DNA of 64,000 bases from Allobosea sp. LC85 (GTDB taxonomy: Bacteria; Pseudomonadota; Alphaproteobacteria; Rhizobiales; Beijerinckiaceae), in contig NZ_JPKG01000006.1 of NCBI RefSeq assembly GCF_000735605.1, forward strand, positions 1 to 64,000, given 5' to 3'. Below the pieces are notes generated by a model. It worked only from the letters and a program-made list of their open reading frames with translations, was not told the DNA's origin and did not search any database. The translations under genes and the position numbers were made by a program. Of the stretch, positions 11,578-59,445 are shown piece by piece. Each line of letters starts with the position of its first letter. The stretch's first letter is position 1.

Positions 11578-12240
11578 ATGACCCTGACGATCTACGGGTG
11601 CTATCGTTCGCGCGCGACGCGCAATATCTGGCTCGCCAACGAGCTCGGCCTCGCCTTCAAGCATGAACCAGTGATCCAGGCTGGCCGAGTGCCTGATCCA
11701 AAGGCGGCGGATGCGCCGGTCCATACCCGCAGCGCCGAATTCCTGAAGGTGAACCCCAACGGGCATATTCCGTCGATCGACGACGATGGCTTCGTGCTGC
11801 ACGAATCGCTCGCAATCAACCTCTATCTCGCCCGGAAGCATGGCGGCCCGCTGGCACCGAAGGACGTCCAGGAAGAGGGACTGGCAGCGATGTGGTCGCT
11901 CTGGGCCGCAACCGAATGCGAGACCAACGCGCTCAACACCCTCTATCACCGCGTCGCCAAACCGCTGGCGGAACGCGACGGCAAACTGGCCGACGCCGCG
12001 GCCGAGGCCCTGCGCGCGCCGCTGGCTGTGCTCAACGATGCCCTCGCCAAGGACGGCTATCTCGTCGGCGGTCGCTTCACCGTCGTCGACATCAATGTCT
12101 CCGAAGTCATCCGCTATGCCCAGACCGGCGCGCCCGAGCTGTTTGCCGCCGTTCCGCTTGTGAAGGCCTGGCTCGAAGCCTGTCAGGCCCGCCCTGCCTT
12201 CAAGGCGATGTGGCAGGCGCGGGACGCCGAGGCGGCCTGA
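11578..12240 (+). CDS. Glutathione S-transferase family protein
   Basis: 220 residues. The thioredoxin-like N-domain (MTLTIYGCYRSRATRNIWLA) contains the glutathione-binding NPNGHIPSIDDDG and HESLAINLYLARK. A helical C-domain follows with the folding motif GRFTVVDINVSEV. It lies 27 bases behind the acyl-CoA dehydrogenase and is probably co-transcribed. The substrate is unknown; GSTs in this setting may detoxify acyl or electrophilic by-products, but that is inference. Confidence 0.92.
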   Translation: MTLTIYGCYRSRATRNIWLANELGLAFKHEPVIQAGRVPDPKAADAPVHTRSAEFLKVNPNGHIPSIDDDGFVLHESLAINLYLARKHGGPLAPKDVQEEGLAAMWSLWAATECETNALNTLYHRVAKPLAERDGKLADAAAEALRAPLAVLNDALAKDGYLVGGRFTVVDINVSEVIRYAQTGAPELFAAVPLVKAWLEACQARPAFKAMWQARDAEAA

Positions 12241-17534: not shown

Positions 17535-18062
17535 ATGATCGAGAACATCACCCTCACCGTCGAGCCTCTCACCGCCGAGACCTTCGCGCCCTATGGCCGG
17601 CTGCTGGCGCCCGAGGGGCCCCGCGACGCCGGGCGTGAGGGATACGACATCTGGATCAAACCCTTTGGCGCCGAGAGCCAGGCCCGGCTCCAGATCGTGC
17701 GCTATCACGCCCGCCCCTTCCTCGTGCGGGTCATGGAACGGCATCTTCATGTCACTGAAACCCGGATGCCGCTGGGGGGACCAGCCGCCATCCTCGTGGT
17801 CGCTCCTCCCGAAGCAGATCGCCCGACAGGGGCCAACCTGCGTGCCTTCCGCCTCGAGCGAACCGGCATCCTCCTGCATCGCGGCACCTGGCATTCGATC
17901 GACGCCTATCCCGAGTCAGGCCCGCATGCCGATTTTCTCTTCCTCTCGGAGGAGGCGACCGTGAGCGAACTTTTCGACACGCCAGACCTTCCCCCTCAGA
18001 GGACCGAAGTCGTGAACCTCATCAAGCGCGACATTCACGCCGTGATCGACGTTAGTCGTTGA
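17535..18062 (+). CDS. allA: Ureidoglycolate lyase (AllA) family protein
   Basis: 175 residues, normal for PF04115. Family features are the opening VEPLTAETFAPYGRLL, ERHLHVTETRMPLGG (metal/active-site His region), and LLHRGTWHSIDAYP in the cupin core. AllA releases urea from ureidoglycolate to give glyoxylate, the last step of allantoin breakdown. No other purine catabolism gene is adjacent, so its partners are elsewhere or it acts on a related ureido compound. It lies just after the tct operon but behind a terminator. Confidence 0.85.
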   Translation: MIENITLTVEPLTAETFAPYGRLLAPEGPRDAGREGYDIWIKPFGAESQARLQIVRYHARPFLVRVMERHLHVTETRMPLGGPAAILVVAPPEADRPTGANLRAFRLERTGILLHRGTWHSIDAYPESGPHADFLFLSEEATVSELFDTPDLPPQRTEVVNLIKRDIHAVIDVSR

Positions 18063-18729: not shown

Positions 18730-18841
18730 AGAGCATGCTGCGAAAACGTGGCAACGGTTTTTCGCATAAAGCATGCTCTAAATTATCAGACTCGATCACG
18801 TTTTCTGCGTTTGGACGATTTCGTCCAAACGCAGCGTGATC
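18730..18841. repeat. Tandem palindromes between the DUF1236 gene and upp
   Basis: The first palindrome has arms AGAGCATGCT (18730-18739) and AGCATGCTCT (18770-18779), with an inner GCGAAAAC/GTTTTTCGC stem. The second has outer arms GATCACG/CGTGATC (18794-18841) and perfect inner arms CTGCGTTTGGACGA/TCGTCCAAACGCAG. The second reaches the upp stop codon. The form resembles the intergenic repeats scattered in Rhizobiales genomes, but it differs from the 8.6/37.5/38.5 kb family. Confidence 0.75.
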
Positions 18842-19482
18842 TAGCGCGTGCCGAACATCCGGTCGCCCGCATCGCCGAGACCCGGCACGATATAGCCGTG
18901 CTCGTTCAGGCGCTCGTCGATCGCGGCTGTCCAGATCCGCACATCCGGGTGAGCGGCGCGCAGGCGCGCAACGCCCTCCGGCGACGCCAGCAGGCAGACG
19001 AAGCGAAGGTCCTTGGCGCCGCGTTCCTTCAGCCGATCCATCGCCGCCACGGCCGAGTTTGCCGTGGCCAGCATCGGGTCCATGACCACGATCATGCGGT
19101 CGGCTATGTCGGAAGGGGCCTTGAAGTAATACTCGACCGCCTGGAGCGTATCGGGATCGCGATAGAGCCCGATATGGGCGACGCGCGCGGCCGGAACCAG
19201 TTCCAGCATGCCATCGAGGAAGCCGACGCCGGCCCGCAGGATCGGCGCGAAGACCAGCTTCTTGCCGGCGATGATCGGCTGCATGCTCCTGGTCAGCGGC
19301 GTCTCGATCTCGATCAGTTCAGTCGGCAGGTCGCGCGTGACCTCGTAGCAGAGCAGCATGCCGATCTCGTTCAGGAGCTGCCGGAAGCTCTTGGTCGAGC
19401 GATCCTTCTCCCGCATCAGCGTCAGCTTGTGCTGGACCAGCGGATGGTCGACCACGGTGACGCCGTCGGAATGCATGGTCAT
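18841..19482 (-). CDS. upp: Uracil phosphoribosyltransferase
   Basis: 213 residues. It has the UPRT core [16 protein letters not shown] and the PRPP-binding [20 protein letters not shown], and it ends in the conserved [20 protein letters not shown] ... [10 protein letters not shown]. It joins uracil and PRPP to give UMP. Here it is the third gene of a URC1-URC4-upp operon, so it corresponds to yeast URC6, acting in catabolism by activating uracil as UMP as well as in salvage. GAGGGG lies about 8 bases before the ATG. The stop codon abuts a palindrome. Confidence 0.97.
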
Positions 19483-19508
19483 ACGCTCTACCCCTCATCG
19501 TTCTCGTG

Positions 19509-19533
19509 AGCCTTCGCTGCGAAGGCGAAGGCT
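19509..19533 (-). promoter_or_regulatory. Intercistronic hairpin between URC4 and upp
   Basis: Perfect 9-base arms AGCCTTCGC and GCGAAGGCT around a 7-base loop, in the 72-base gap of the operon. It may tune or stabilise upp mRNA relative to the upstream genes. Confidence 0.5.
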
Positions 19534-19554
19534 GATGCTCGTGTCAGCACGGTC

Positions 19555-20772
19555 TCAGAATACCGTGCCATCGCTGACGATGGTCAAGGGCGGCCCGCCA
19601 TCCCCGCGTTTTTCTCGCGCGATGCGCCGCCCGGCCGCCCAGGTCCCGCCCTCGAGAACCTTGGCGAGCGGGAGTTCGTCCCGCGAGCGATCAAGCCGCT
19701 CCCGAATGAGCGCGCCCAACTCGTCGAGCAGAGCAACGGTGAGTGCCCGCCATTCGACCACGAGCGGCGACGCGACCTCGTGGCTGCGCGCCGCATCGGC
19801 CGCATGCTTGAGCGTGATGACCCCCAGATCCAGAAACAGCCCACCATTGCGATATTCGGGCAAGCCGGTGAGGTCATCGATGTCCAAGACGGTGATGCCG
19901 GCCCATTGCAGCGGTTCGATCAGCGAATAGGAGAGCCATTGCGAGAGCTTGTGGAACGGCACGAGCCCCGCCGTGGAGGCTCCCACGGCGATCAGCGGAT
20001 GACGCCAGGTATCGCCCAAGGCAATTCCCGCAATCGTCAGGCGTGACGGCCAGATGCCGCCAAAAGTGCCGAGAACCTCGGCCAGGATGTGGGCGGCGCG
20101 GATTGAACCGCCCGACGCCGTTTCGATGAAGCGATCGAAGAGATCGCCCGGCCGTGTCAGGCCCTGACGTTCGAGCTCCTCGCCGAGGCGGTTCAGCAGG
20201 GCGGCCCTCCCTTCGAGCGCAAGCAGGGGATTGGCCGGGCCAACCTGGAAACCGGTGGCCAAGGCCTCGGCATCGAGCCGTTTCAGCGCCTCGGCATCGG
20301 CCCGCAACGGGTCCGTCGCGTCGCTCGAGAACAGTCCCGCAGCGAACATGTCGAGCGAGGCGAGTGCCAGCCCCTCAGATCGGCCGATCGGCTTGCCCGT
20401 CACCCGGTCGTGATAACTCCAGGCAGGCCCCGCTCCGGCGTCCAGCAGAACGCTGACGACCGCGAGGTCGTAGGCCGCGCGACCGCGCGCTCCGGCATCC
20501 GGGAAATGCGTCCCGCGCTCAAGCATGGTCCAGCGATCCATGCCGCCGACCACGAAATGGCGCCAGCGCGCGTGGAAGGGAATGTCGAGCCTCGGATAAT
20601 TCGCCCGGATCGTGTCGAGGACATAGTCGGCGCAGGCCGCCAGCCGCTCGGGATGCACGGAGAAATGCAGCAGCCGGCCCTCGCGACCGAGCTGGAGCAT
20701 TTCCTGCGCCCGCTCACGGATTGCAGCGGGCTTGAGGAGCCGGCGGACGGCCTCGGGGTCGCGGTCGGGCAT
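19555..20772 (-). CDS. URC4/Urg3-family protein (DUF1688), uracil catabolism
   Basis: 405 residues, full family length. It starts MPDRDPEAVRRLLKPAAIRE and has the conserved HFSVHPERLAACADYVLDTI, IPFHARWRHFVVGG and SDATDPLRADAEALKRL. The family is the product of yeast URC4/URG3, required for the URC route of uracil breakdown; its chemical step is not firmly known. It lies 15 bases after URC1 and 72 bases before upp on the same strand. Context therefore supports the same role here. Confidence 0.88.
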   Translation of the reverse strand: MPDRDPEAVRRLLKPAAIRERAQEMLQLGREGRLLHFSVHPERLAACADYVLDTIRANYPRLDIPFHARWRHFVVGGMDRWTMLERGTHFPDAGARGRAAYDLAVVSVLLDAGAGPAWSYHDRVTGKPIGRSEGLALASLDMFAAGLFSSDATDPLRADAEALKRLDAEALATGFQVGPANPLLALEGRAALLNRLGEELERQGLTRPGDLFDRFIETASGGSIRAAHILAEVLGTFGGIWPSRLTIAGIALGDTWRHPLIAVGASTAGLVPFHKLSQWLSYSLIEPLQWAGITVLDIDDLTGLPEYRNGGLFLDLGVITLKHAADAARSHEVASPLVVEWRALTVALLDELGALIRERLDRSRDELPLAKVLEGGTWAAGRRIAREKRGDGGPPLTIVSDGTVF

Positions 20773-20787
20773 GGGCGGCGGATGCTC

Positions 20788-22050
20788 TCAGAACTTGTCG
20801 AGGTCGCGACCGACGGTCGCCTTCAGCGTGTTGTCGCCCGGCGTGCCCTCCGGCGAATAGTAGCCGGCCGCCTTCTTGGCCTCGATCTCGACCGAGGCAT
20901 CGGGCGGGATCAGCTCCGGCGGAATGGCAACACGCTCGCCGATCTCGATGCCCGACTGCACCATGGCGTCGAATTTCATGTTCGACATCGACATCAACCG
21001 GTCGATGCGCGTGACACCGAGCCAATGCAGCACATCCGGCATCAATTGCTGGAAGCGGGCATCCTGCACGCCGGCGACGCATTCGGTGCGCTCGAAATAG
21101 GTCGCAGCGGAATCGCCGCCCTCCTGGCGCTTGCGGGCATTGTAGACGAGGAACTTGGTGACCTCGCCAAGGGCCCTGCCCTCCTTGCGGTTGTAGACGA
21201 TGAGGCCGACACCGCCGCTCTGCGCTTCCTTCACGGCCTCCTCGATGCCATGCACGAGATAGGGCCGGCAGGTACAGATATCGGAGCCGAAGACGTCAGA
21301 GCCGTTGCATTCGTCGTGGACCCGGCAGGCAACCCTGCGCTTCGGATCGGTGATCGCCGCGAGATCGCCGATGACGTAGCAGGTGATCGAGCCGATCGGC
21401 GGCAGGAAGACGTGCAGATCGGGCCGGGTGACGAGTTCGGGGTACATGCCGCCGGTCTGCTCGAACAGGGTGCGGCGCAGTTCCTGCTCCGACGTGCCGA
21501 AGCGCTCGGCAATGCCCGGCAGGTGCCAGACCGGGTCGATCGCGATCTTGGTGACGCTGATATCGCCGGATTTGTGCAGGATGCCCTCGTCGGCCGCGAG
21601 CCTGTGGCCAGCCATCGCCGCGAGAATCTCCGGCAGGTTCAGCCGTGCCCTGGTGATGGCGATGGTGGGCCGGATATCGACGCCCTCGGCGATCAGCCGC
21701 CCGAAATCCTGCGCGACCCGATGGCCGTAAGGATCGAGCGAGACGATCTTGCCGGGCTCGGCCCATTGCGGCTGCGGCAGGATGTCGGTGGTCGGCTGTG
21801 TGTTCGTCAGGTCCGGGCGCTGCGACGGGTTCATCGCGCGCGCCGAGATCGCGAGCGCACGATAGACCGAATAGGAGCCGCCATGGGCGCCTATGACGTT
21901 GCGGTCGGCCGGGTTGGTGGTCGAGGCAATGACCGGGCCGCGCTCGGTGGCGGTTTCCCCACCCCAGTGGATCGGGAAGCGCATGGCGGCGCTGCCAGGC
22001 TCGGGATGCGAAGTCAGGCGGATATGGGTGGTGCGGTTCTGCGAATTCAT
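20788..22050 (-). CDS. GTP cyclohydrolase II-like protein, URC1 type (uracil catabolism)
   Basis: 420 residues, about twice the size of riboflavin RibA. An N-terminal extension of about 190 residues precedes the RibA-like domain. The zinc ligands are kept with RibA spacing: Cys248, Cys259 and Cys261 in RVHDECNGSD...DICTCRP (C-x10-C-x-C). The catalytic loop reads YNRKEGRALGE where RibA has YHRQEGRxIGL. A C-terminal extension (about 385-420) ends GDNTLKATVGRDLDKF. It is the first gene of the URC1-URC4-upp operon, matching yeast URC1, a GTP cyclohydrolase II homologue needed to open a uracil-derived nucleotide. No ribB, ribD or ribE gene is near, so a riboflavin role is unlikely. Confidence 0.87.
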   Translation of the reverse strand: MNSQNRTTHIRLTSHPEPGSAAMRFPIHWGGETATERGPVIASTTNPADRNVIGAHGGSYSVYRALAISARAMNPSQRPDLTNTQPTTDILPQPQWAEPGKIVSLDPYGHRVAQDFGRLIAEGVDIRPTIAITRARLNLPEILAAMAGHRLAADEGILHKSGDISVTKIAIDPVWHLPGIAERFGTSEQELRRTLFEQTGGMYPELVTRPDLHVFLPPIGSITCYVIGDLAAITDPKRRVACRVHDECNGSDVFGSDICTCRPYLVHGIEEAVKEAQSGGVGLIVYNRKEGRALGEVTKFLVYNARKRQEGGDSAATYFERTECVAGVQDARFQQLMPDVLHWLGVTRIDRLMSMSNMKFDAMVQSGIEIGERVAIPPELIPPDASVEIEAKKAAGYYSPEGTPGDNTLKATVGRDLDKF

Positions 22051-22069: not shown

Positions 22070-22104
22070 AAAAGGGCCCATGACGGAGTCGTCCGGGCCC
22101 TTTT
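22070..22104 (-). terminator. Terminator/attenuator hairpin in the URC operon leader
   Basis: Perfect arms AAAAGGGCCC and GGGCCCTTTT around a 15-base loop. Reading on the minus strand, the stem ends in TTTT only 20 bases before the URC1 start. It lies 57 bases after the stop of the small membrane gene. It can end that gene's transcript, but any URC promoter upstream of it must read through the stem. Confidence 0.75.
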
Positions 22105-22160
22105 GACCGAAGGGAGAGTGGATCAGTGCTCAGCGCACGTCAATCGATCCGCGCGGGCGC

Positions 22161-22322
22161 TCAGAAGACCGCGAGATAGCGCAGCAGCGCGATGATGCCG
22201 ATGATGATGACGATGATCTGGACGATGTTCTTGATCTGGGCATCGAGCGGCAGCATGCGCACGAGATAAAGCACCAGACCGATCACCAGAATCGTGATCA
22301 GAAGCGAAATCAGAAGTCCCAT
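22161..22322 (-). CDS. Small membrane protein (53 residues)
   Basis: AAGGA lies 9 bases before the ATG. The product is almost entirely hydrophobic, with two helices: MGLLISLLITILVIGLVLYL, then after RMLPLDAQIKN the second, IVQIIVIIIGIIALLRYL. The two-helix form with a short polar loop resembles the small Thivi_2564-type membrane proteins. The function is unknown. It precedes the URC operon on the same strand but is separated by a terminator-like hairpin. Confidence 0.75.
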   Translation of the reverse strand: MGLLISLLITILVIGLVLYLVRMLPLDAQIKNIVQIIVIIIGIIALLRYLAVF

Positions 22323-59227: not shown

Positions 59228-59427
59228 CCCCCTCTGTCTTGGGACCTGAGAGATTTCCCCGAACCGGCTCGATCAGCCGGACAGGTTACACCCGTCGGTG
59301 GGCGGACTTGCATCCGCCGCTTTCCAGAGCGCCAATTCCCACGCGGTCCGTTTGCCTGAGCGTTTCCGGGGCGGTTGCGCCTTCGGCGCCGGGCCTGGAC
59401 AAGTCCGGGCCCGGTCTCTCCCGCGGG
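59228..59427 (-). ncRNA. Tandem glycine riboswitch
   Basis: On the minus strand two glycine aptamers run in series ahead of gcvT. The first has GCCGAAGGCGCAACC, CCCGGAAACGCTCAGGCAAA, CGGACC and CTCTGGAAAG. The second has CACCGACGGGTGTAACC, GGGGAAATCTCTCAGGTCCC and AAGACAGAGGGG. These are the conserved cores of the tandem gcvT motif. The RNA ends about 54 bases before the gcvT ATG. In other bacteria it turns the operon on with glycine. Confidence 0.95.
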
Positions 59428-59445
59428 GATGATGCGGCGTCAGCA

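Follow-up and report, generated by a model that had tools for sequence, protein, structure and literature searches.

A cluster of three genes in Bosea raises the question of how uracil can serve as a source of nitrogen and, in particular, what the protein URC4 contributes to its catabolism. The cluster lies in a stretch of 64,000 nucleotides from Allobosea sp. LC85 (contig NZ_JPKG01000006.1, positions 1 to 64,000; hereafter the window) and consists of the uracil catabolism (URC) genes URC1 and URC4 followed by upp, all in one direction and with intergenic gaps of 15 and 72 bases. An earlier reading made from the letters alone (the sequence-only reading) had taken these genes for a URC operon; its coordinates and gaps were all reproduced, and the families, gene order and co-occurrence described below agree with it. 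The trio is a bacterial URC operon, a further case of an already known type and one of many; what is new here is the prediction, with named residues, that URC4 is an N-glycosidase, together with a hairpin in the leader of URC1. We consider it probable that the operon lets Bosea take nitrogen from uracil, with URC4 acting as the N-glycosidase. A wider proposal, that URC4 forms a second branch of the Qng1 superfamily that cleaves (phospho)ribosylurea and that the leader hairpin is an attenuator found in many Alphaproteobacteria and plausibly responsive to pyrimidine nucleotides, has in our judgement an even chance of holding in both its parts. The features concerned are as follows.

18841-19482, minus strand: upp, uracil phosphoribosyltransferase (URC6-type step), 213 amino acids; TIGR01091, 270.5 bits against a cut-off of 208.35.
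19555-20772, minus strand: URC4 (DUF1688), 405 amino acids, predicted N-glycosidase with a Qng1 fold; PF07958, 475.6 bits against a gathering score of 25.
20788-22050, minus strand: URC1, UTP (uridine triphosphate) cyclohydrolase family, 420 amino acids; NF005536, 736.4 bits against a cut-off of 403.
22070-22104, minus strand: URC1 leader hairpin with a short U-run, candidate attenuator; from leader folding and an alignment of Bosea leaders.
22133-22145, minus strand: GATTGACG, on the far side of the hairpin from URC1, perhaps a -35 region, inferred from the alignment of Bosea leaders.

The biochemistry of URC4 had been called unsettled by the sequence-only reading, and the literature that we searched, which was largely that of open papers available in part, contained no settled assignment and no link between DUF1688/URC4 and Qng1. 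A structural model of URC4 built from a 46-sequence alignment had a high predicted local distance difference test score (pLDDT 91.7) and a predicted template modelling score (pTM) of 0.90. When this model was compared with the Protein Data Bank (PDB) by Foldseek, all 11 matches at an expect value (E) of 0.001 or lower were Qng1/DUF2419 chains, and the next match had an E of 0.74; in the best row the E was 1.3e-9, with template modelling (TM) scores of 0.62 for the query and 0.76 for the target. Qng1 acts on queuosine 5'-monophosphate, from which it splits off queuine. Sequence comparison pointed to the same family in two instances: a broader URC4 profile, searched against the PDB at E up to 10, retrieved three sequences, each of them a Qng1 (best whole-sequence E 0.018), and 16 of the 46 aligned URC4 sequences match Pfam Q_salvage (PF10343) weakly (best E 0.00063).

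The residues of the Qng1 pocket could also be followed into URC4. In a mapping that combined 62 URC4 and three Qng1 sequences by three alignment methods, Lys199, Asp231, Tyr232, Lys233 and Trp302 of Qng1 corresponded in all three alignments to Lys275, Glu306, Tyr307, Arg308 and Trp378 of URC4, and these five URC4 residues are invariant in both URC4 alignments, with Glu374 conserved in at least 90% of sequences. According to the entry titles, Lys199 and Asp231 of Qng1 are the residues mutated in the solved entries 7u5a and 7ulc, and the part of PMC11592518 that was available names Asp298 and Trp302 as active-site residues. On the strength of this mapping and the model, Lys275, Glu306 and Trp378 are candidate catalytic residues of URC4, as is, less surely, Glu374.

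Several observations weigh against a kinship of URC4 with Qng1. Identity between the two is 16-18%, the acid at the mapped position is Glu (306) in URC4 and Asp (231) in Qng1, and Asp298 of Qng1 falls on Glu374 in just two of the three alignments. With the broader URC4 profile no single stretch of a Qng1 sequence passes alone (best stretch E 14), and no solved relative was found in the PDB by single-sequence or narrow-profile searches. URC4 gave no significant match to three plasmid Qng1 sequences when profiles were compared with profiles (probability 0.3% and 0.1%). In a control test, 10.1 bits were obtained for the solved Qng1 fragment, and 2 of 5000 shuffles did as well; but among 1271 unrelated real proteins one reached 10.2, and two plasmid Qng1 sequences were unremarkable, being equalled by 1276 and 89 of the 5000 shuffles and by 236 and 5 of the 1271 real proteins. 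The window's URC4 itself has no match to Pfam Q_salvage, the matches of the 16 relatives are weak, and none of seven further URC4 sequences matched this family at E up to 1. Genome searches for Q_salvage found it in none of 11 and none of 398 genomes, but no control responded in them either. Support from pure sequence comparison is weak, and the suggested kinship rests on the predicted fold and on the register of the conserved residues.

The substrate offered to URC4 depends on what URC1 does. As the sequence-only reading described, URC1 is a RibA-like protein of 420 residues that carries Cys248, Cys259 and Cys261 and the loop YNRKEGRALGE. The three cysteines, assigned as zinc ligands, align with Cys54, Cys65 and Cys67 of Escherichia coli GTP (guanosine triphosphate) cyclohydrolase II and do not vary in either of two alignments, of 25 and 32 sequences, that contain the window's protein; Tyr303, Asp330 and Arg332, invariant in the 32 sequences, align with Tyr105, Asp126 and Arg128 of the E. 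coli enzyme, whose Cys, Tyr, Asp and Arg core residues we assume to have their familiar roles. The best solved relatives of URC1 are PDB entries 7EEV and 7EJ3 (577 bits over residues 7-418, 63-64% identity), which are titled Structure of UTP cyclohydrolase and UTP cyclohydrolase and in which the molecule is named GTP cyclohydrolase II. URC1 stays far below the RibA cut-offs (50.2 bits against 205.85 for TIGR00505; 60.5 against 148 for PRK00393), and all six RibA-type models that it touches are matched far under their cut-offs. Separate riboflavin genes lie on another contig, namely a RibA gene (PRK08815, 492.9 against a cut-off of 464) and a RibB-domain gene over cut-off. The failure to reach the RibA cut-offs and the presence of a separate RibA bear out the earlier view that URC1 is not a riboflavin enzyme: it is a member of the UTP cyclohydrolase family, not a RibA, and is predicted from its sequence to hydrolyse UTP. 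UMP (uridine monophosphate) had been suggested as the substrate, but because the nearest solved relatives are titled UTP cyclohydrolase, and because PMC12507026, in the part available, cites a 2021 UTP cyclohydrolase paper for the URC pathway, UTP is the better candidate, and more is settled about the step of URC1 than that suggestion implied. The predicted model of URC1 itself was poor (pLDDT 67.7) and was used just for the titles of its clear structural matches. In the database, NF005536 and the RefSeq products in three of the fetched loci (L137, L138 and L139) label URC1 proteins as GTP cyclohydrolase II; NF005536 and the RefSeq products derived from it appear to be misleadingly named for a UTP cyclohydrolase.

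These assignments can be assembled into a route. Upp would convert uracil and phosphoribosyl pyrophosphate into UMP, which housekeeping kinases would presumably raise to UTP. URC1, as a UTP cyclohydrolase, would open the ring and detach C4-C6 in the form of a three-carbon acid; N-ribosylurea would remain, probably 5'-phosphorylated. URC4 would then hydrolyse the bond between C1' of ribose and the urea nitrogen to release urea and ribose (5-phosphate), and a urease encoded elsewhere in the genome would convert the urea into ammonia. From what is observed, namely the genes, their order, co-occurrence and families, the predicted fold and conserved residues of URC4 and the urease gene, we infer for this organism every reaction of the route, the phosphorylation state of its intermediates and its regulation. 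URC1 keeps an arginine that we take to be the residue tied to pyrophosphate release in RibA. Because of this arginine, and because the primary substrate of Qng1 is said to be a 5'-monophosphate in the accessible part of PMC12301720, ribosylurea 5'-monophosphate is our first guess as the URC4 substrate. In Lachancea kluyveri, URC4 degrades ribosylurea to urea according to the portion of PMC7530994 available to us, and an N-glycosidase fits because it is what the step from ribosylurea to urea requires. Should URC4 indeed be a ribosylurea N-glycosidase, a gap in URC pyrimidine degradation would be closed, and a family that is still listed in Pfam as DUF1688, of unknown function, would gain a concrete and testable role, that of an N-glycosidase acting on ribosylurea-5'-phosphate.

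The sequence-only reading had called the trio self-sufficient, which is too strong, as the kinases from UMP to UTP, the urease and the handling of the three-carbon product must all come from elsewhere. A urease alpha subunit is present in the genome (966.3 bits against a cut-off of 680 in a search for that subunit), and no upp other than that of the operon exceeds the cut-off. Two other routes of pyrimidine degradation were considered and set aside. The Rut route was rejected because no gene of the genome reaches the RutA cut-off of 498.3 bits (the best scores 79). For the reductive (Pyd) route, the genome has one DHO_dh-type gene over cut-off, which is taken to be PyrD, so that no dihydropyrimidine dehydrogenase is seen; yet three dihydropyrimidinase-type genes are over cut-off, one of which adjoins a gene of the Asp/Glu/hydantoin racemase family.

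The three genes also travel together. In a sample of 397 Pseudomonadota genomes, searched for DUF1688 and URC1 with the same settings, each was found in 28 (URC1 over cut-off), and comparison of the lists showed the 28 genomes to be identical; the lowest URC1 score among them was 731.8 bits and the next best in the sample 58.8. Neighbourhoods were taken from 27 of the 28 genomes (the window's own was omitted; one is of the same genus). URC1 adjoins URC4 on the same strand in all 27, and upp lies on the same strand in 24, the other three having a divergent upp, a contig end and no upp in the stretch, respectively; the conserved synteny for which the sequence-only reading had proposed a search is thus found. 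A larger set of 110 partly redundant loci gave a same-strand URC1 in 106 and upp in 102, and in all four loci without an adjacent URC1 this gene occurs elsewhere in the genome. Because DUF1688 is moreover present in 57 of the 61 searched genomes of the genus (the window's own counted) and adjacency to URC1 is complete, the trio is not a chance grouping. The four loci in question are L075, L081, L102 and L130 (three Enterovirga records and one Rhizobiales genome); shortly after upp in the first three comes a member of a protein cluster of which one tested member belongs to the 2-keto-3-deoxy-galactonokinase family.

In some distant lineages the neighbours fit the use of nucleobases or nucleosides. 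Genes for a BMP-family ABC (ATP-binding cassette) transporter and for a protein identified by NCBIfam as cytosine deaminase (amidohydrolase family protein in RefSeq) come after the trio in Azospirillum; L021 likewise has a BMP-family gene after the trio, an adenosine deaminase gene lies near it in L093, and members of a phosphopentomutase cluster (one member tested) occur near it in 14 loci. Other tested neighbours were off that theme, among them sulfatases, a cation efflux protein, the 2-keto-3-deoxy-galactonokinase-family protein and oligopeptide-type permeases.

Three other explanations must be set against the proposed route. URC4 might have kept the fold of Qng1 and carry out another chemistry, for example by hydrolysing the ureidoacrylate or an amide bond that URC1 leaves behind; URC1 would then only open the ring and URC4 would finish the degradation. 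Proteins of similar fold can catalyse different reactions, URC4 has Glu where Qng1 has Asp, a pocket built for queuine need not, as far as we can judge, suit a much smaller leaving group, and the product of URC1 is unstated in the literature, as far as its available parts go. Set against this, the mapped Lys, acid and Trp are residues of the glycosidase pocket and are invariant, and the conversion of ribosylurea into urea by URC4 is what PMC7530994, in the part mentioned above, describes; we regard the alternative as unlikely. Somewhat less probable still is that the trio serves mainly for salvage or for lowering the UTP pool instead of supplying nitrogen. Since the genome has no second upp over cut-off, that of the operon probably serves salvage too, but the urease gene and the transport and deaminase genes beside the trio in some other bacteria speak for nitrogen supply.

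URC1 could, finally, be a second GTP cyclohydrolase II that works for riboflavin or another GTP-derived product, as its name in NF005536 and in RefSeq products and its retention of the zinc cysteines, Tyr303, Asp330 and Arg332 would allow. We rejected RibA as the identity of URC1 and consider this explanation very improbable, given the scores below the RibA cut-offs, the best solved relatives titled UTP cyclohydrolase, the other RibA/RibBA-type genes in the genome and the co-occurrence of URC1 over cut-off with URC4 in 28 of 28 genomes. Nitrogen supply from uracil, with URC1 opening the ring of UTP and URC4 acting as the N-glycosidase, is the reading that we prefer.

Upstream of URC1, the window's leader has a folding energy of -38 kcal/mol, whereas its shuffles average -21.8 (z -5.31; 0 of 200 shuffles as good). 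The stem of its hairpin ends in UUUU and is followed by a GAGAG stretch, possibly a ribosome site. The hairpin is kept in related Bosea leaders, where 4 of its 13 pairs are changed on both sides in some row, and the RNAalifold covariation term is near zero. The window's hairpin was not listed by a standard terminator scan and matched no Rfam family, and a sigma-70 promoter scan of the leader found no promoter; the GATTGACG stretch is a possible -35 region. Across the fetched loci, 102 distinct leaders were collected (the window's own excluded), of which 57 remained after near-copy removal and 56 had an assignable upstream neighbour. Where that neighbour is divergent, the hairpin is not the upstream gene's terminator, and in this group a terminator-like hairpin of -18 kcal/mol or lower occurs in 11 of 22 URC1 leaders and 13 of 247 control leaders (Fisher 1e-7, an optimistic p value because genes were called by a custom codon-usage script, leaders from one lineage lack independence and the comparison was made at five thresholds). 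The corresponding counts were 9 of 22 and 3 of 247 at -20, and 14 of 22 and 51 of 247 at -12. With a co-directional neighbour, 16 of 34 URC1 leaders and 12 of 258 controls carry the hairpin at -18. A first, looser test had separated the groups less well (83 of 102 URC1 leaders against 95 of 279 controls, with 133 of 306 among block-shuffled URC1 leaders). The hairpin is absent in six loci outside the window's class (L012, L021, L025, L032, L034 and L035; best -10.1) and is also missing from a number of loci within it. We regard the leader hairpin as a candidate attenuator.

Similar hairpins lie upstream of the URC1 start in L015, L037, L038, L044, L053, L090, L126, L131 and others. Two related loci outside the window's class, L034 and L035, have a palindrome, CTGACCANNTGGTCAG, at 11911-11926 and 11887-11902, starting 26 and 55 bases before URC1. 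It differs by two mismatches from what we take to be the consensus of the RutR operator, and nine equally good sites are listed in the 1.85 Mb of fetched loci; no RutR-like palindrome was found in the window.

As to the setting of the operon, the source genome comprises 6.56 Mb in 74 contigs, and eight relatives of URC4 at 76-81% identity are all Bosea records, several of them marked a-proteobacteria. The two genes upstream of URC1 in the same direction are presumably glyQ and glyS, and between the presumed glyS and URC1 lies a hydrophobic open frame of 53 codons (22161-22322, minus strand). On the other side, a gene of the ureidoglycolate lyase family by Pfam (17535-18062, plus strand) has as neighbours a tripartite tricarboxylate transporter set and a gene for a LysR-type regulator. 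It was rejected as a partner of the operon: it runs in the opposite direction and sits with the transporter set, its product is under the cut-offs of all eight NCBIfam models matched, and such a gene accompanies the trio in just 7 of the 14 loci from the same genus and in none of 26 others. Farther away, two adjacent glycine riboswitch aptamers occupy 59232-59433 (minus strand), the second being weaker (38.1 bits, gathering score 32).

The URC pathway of L. kluyveri was reportedly described by Andersen et al. in 2008. The Bosea operon resembles it in URC1, URC4 and uracil phosphoribosyltransferase and in urea as an end product. The sequence-only reading had named URC1, URC4 and URC6 as the genes needed in that yeast, a list that has to be extended, as the part of PMC7530994 at hand names URC1-6 and URC8 as essential. 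In L. kluyveri, URC3/URC5 concern urea amidolyase, whereas Bosea has a bacterial operon and a urease gene (urea amidolyase and the other URC genes were not searched for in Bosea). In Schizosaccharomyces pombe, urg1 and urg3 are, according to the available part of PMC3869809, orthologues of URC1 and URC4 that cluster with uracil transport and phosphoribosyltransferase genes; this is a fungal cluster with a uracil-regulated promoter, as stated in the accessible portion of PMC2174524. At the level of single proteins, URC1 is like the UTP cyclohydrolase of 7EEV and 7EJ3 over residues 7-418, with no difference of kind found. URC4 shares its predicted fold over most of the chain with Qng1/DUF2419 (7U07, 7UK3, 7ULC, 7U91 and 7UGK), but it is about 80 residues longer than bacterial Qng1 and keeps different gene company.

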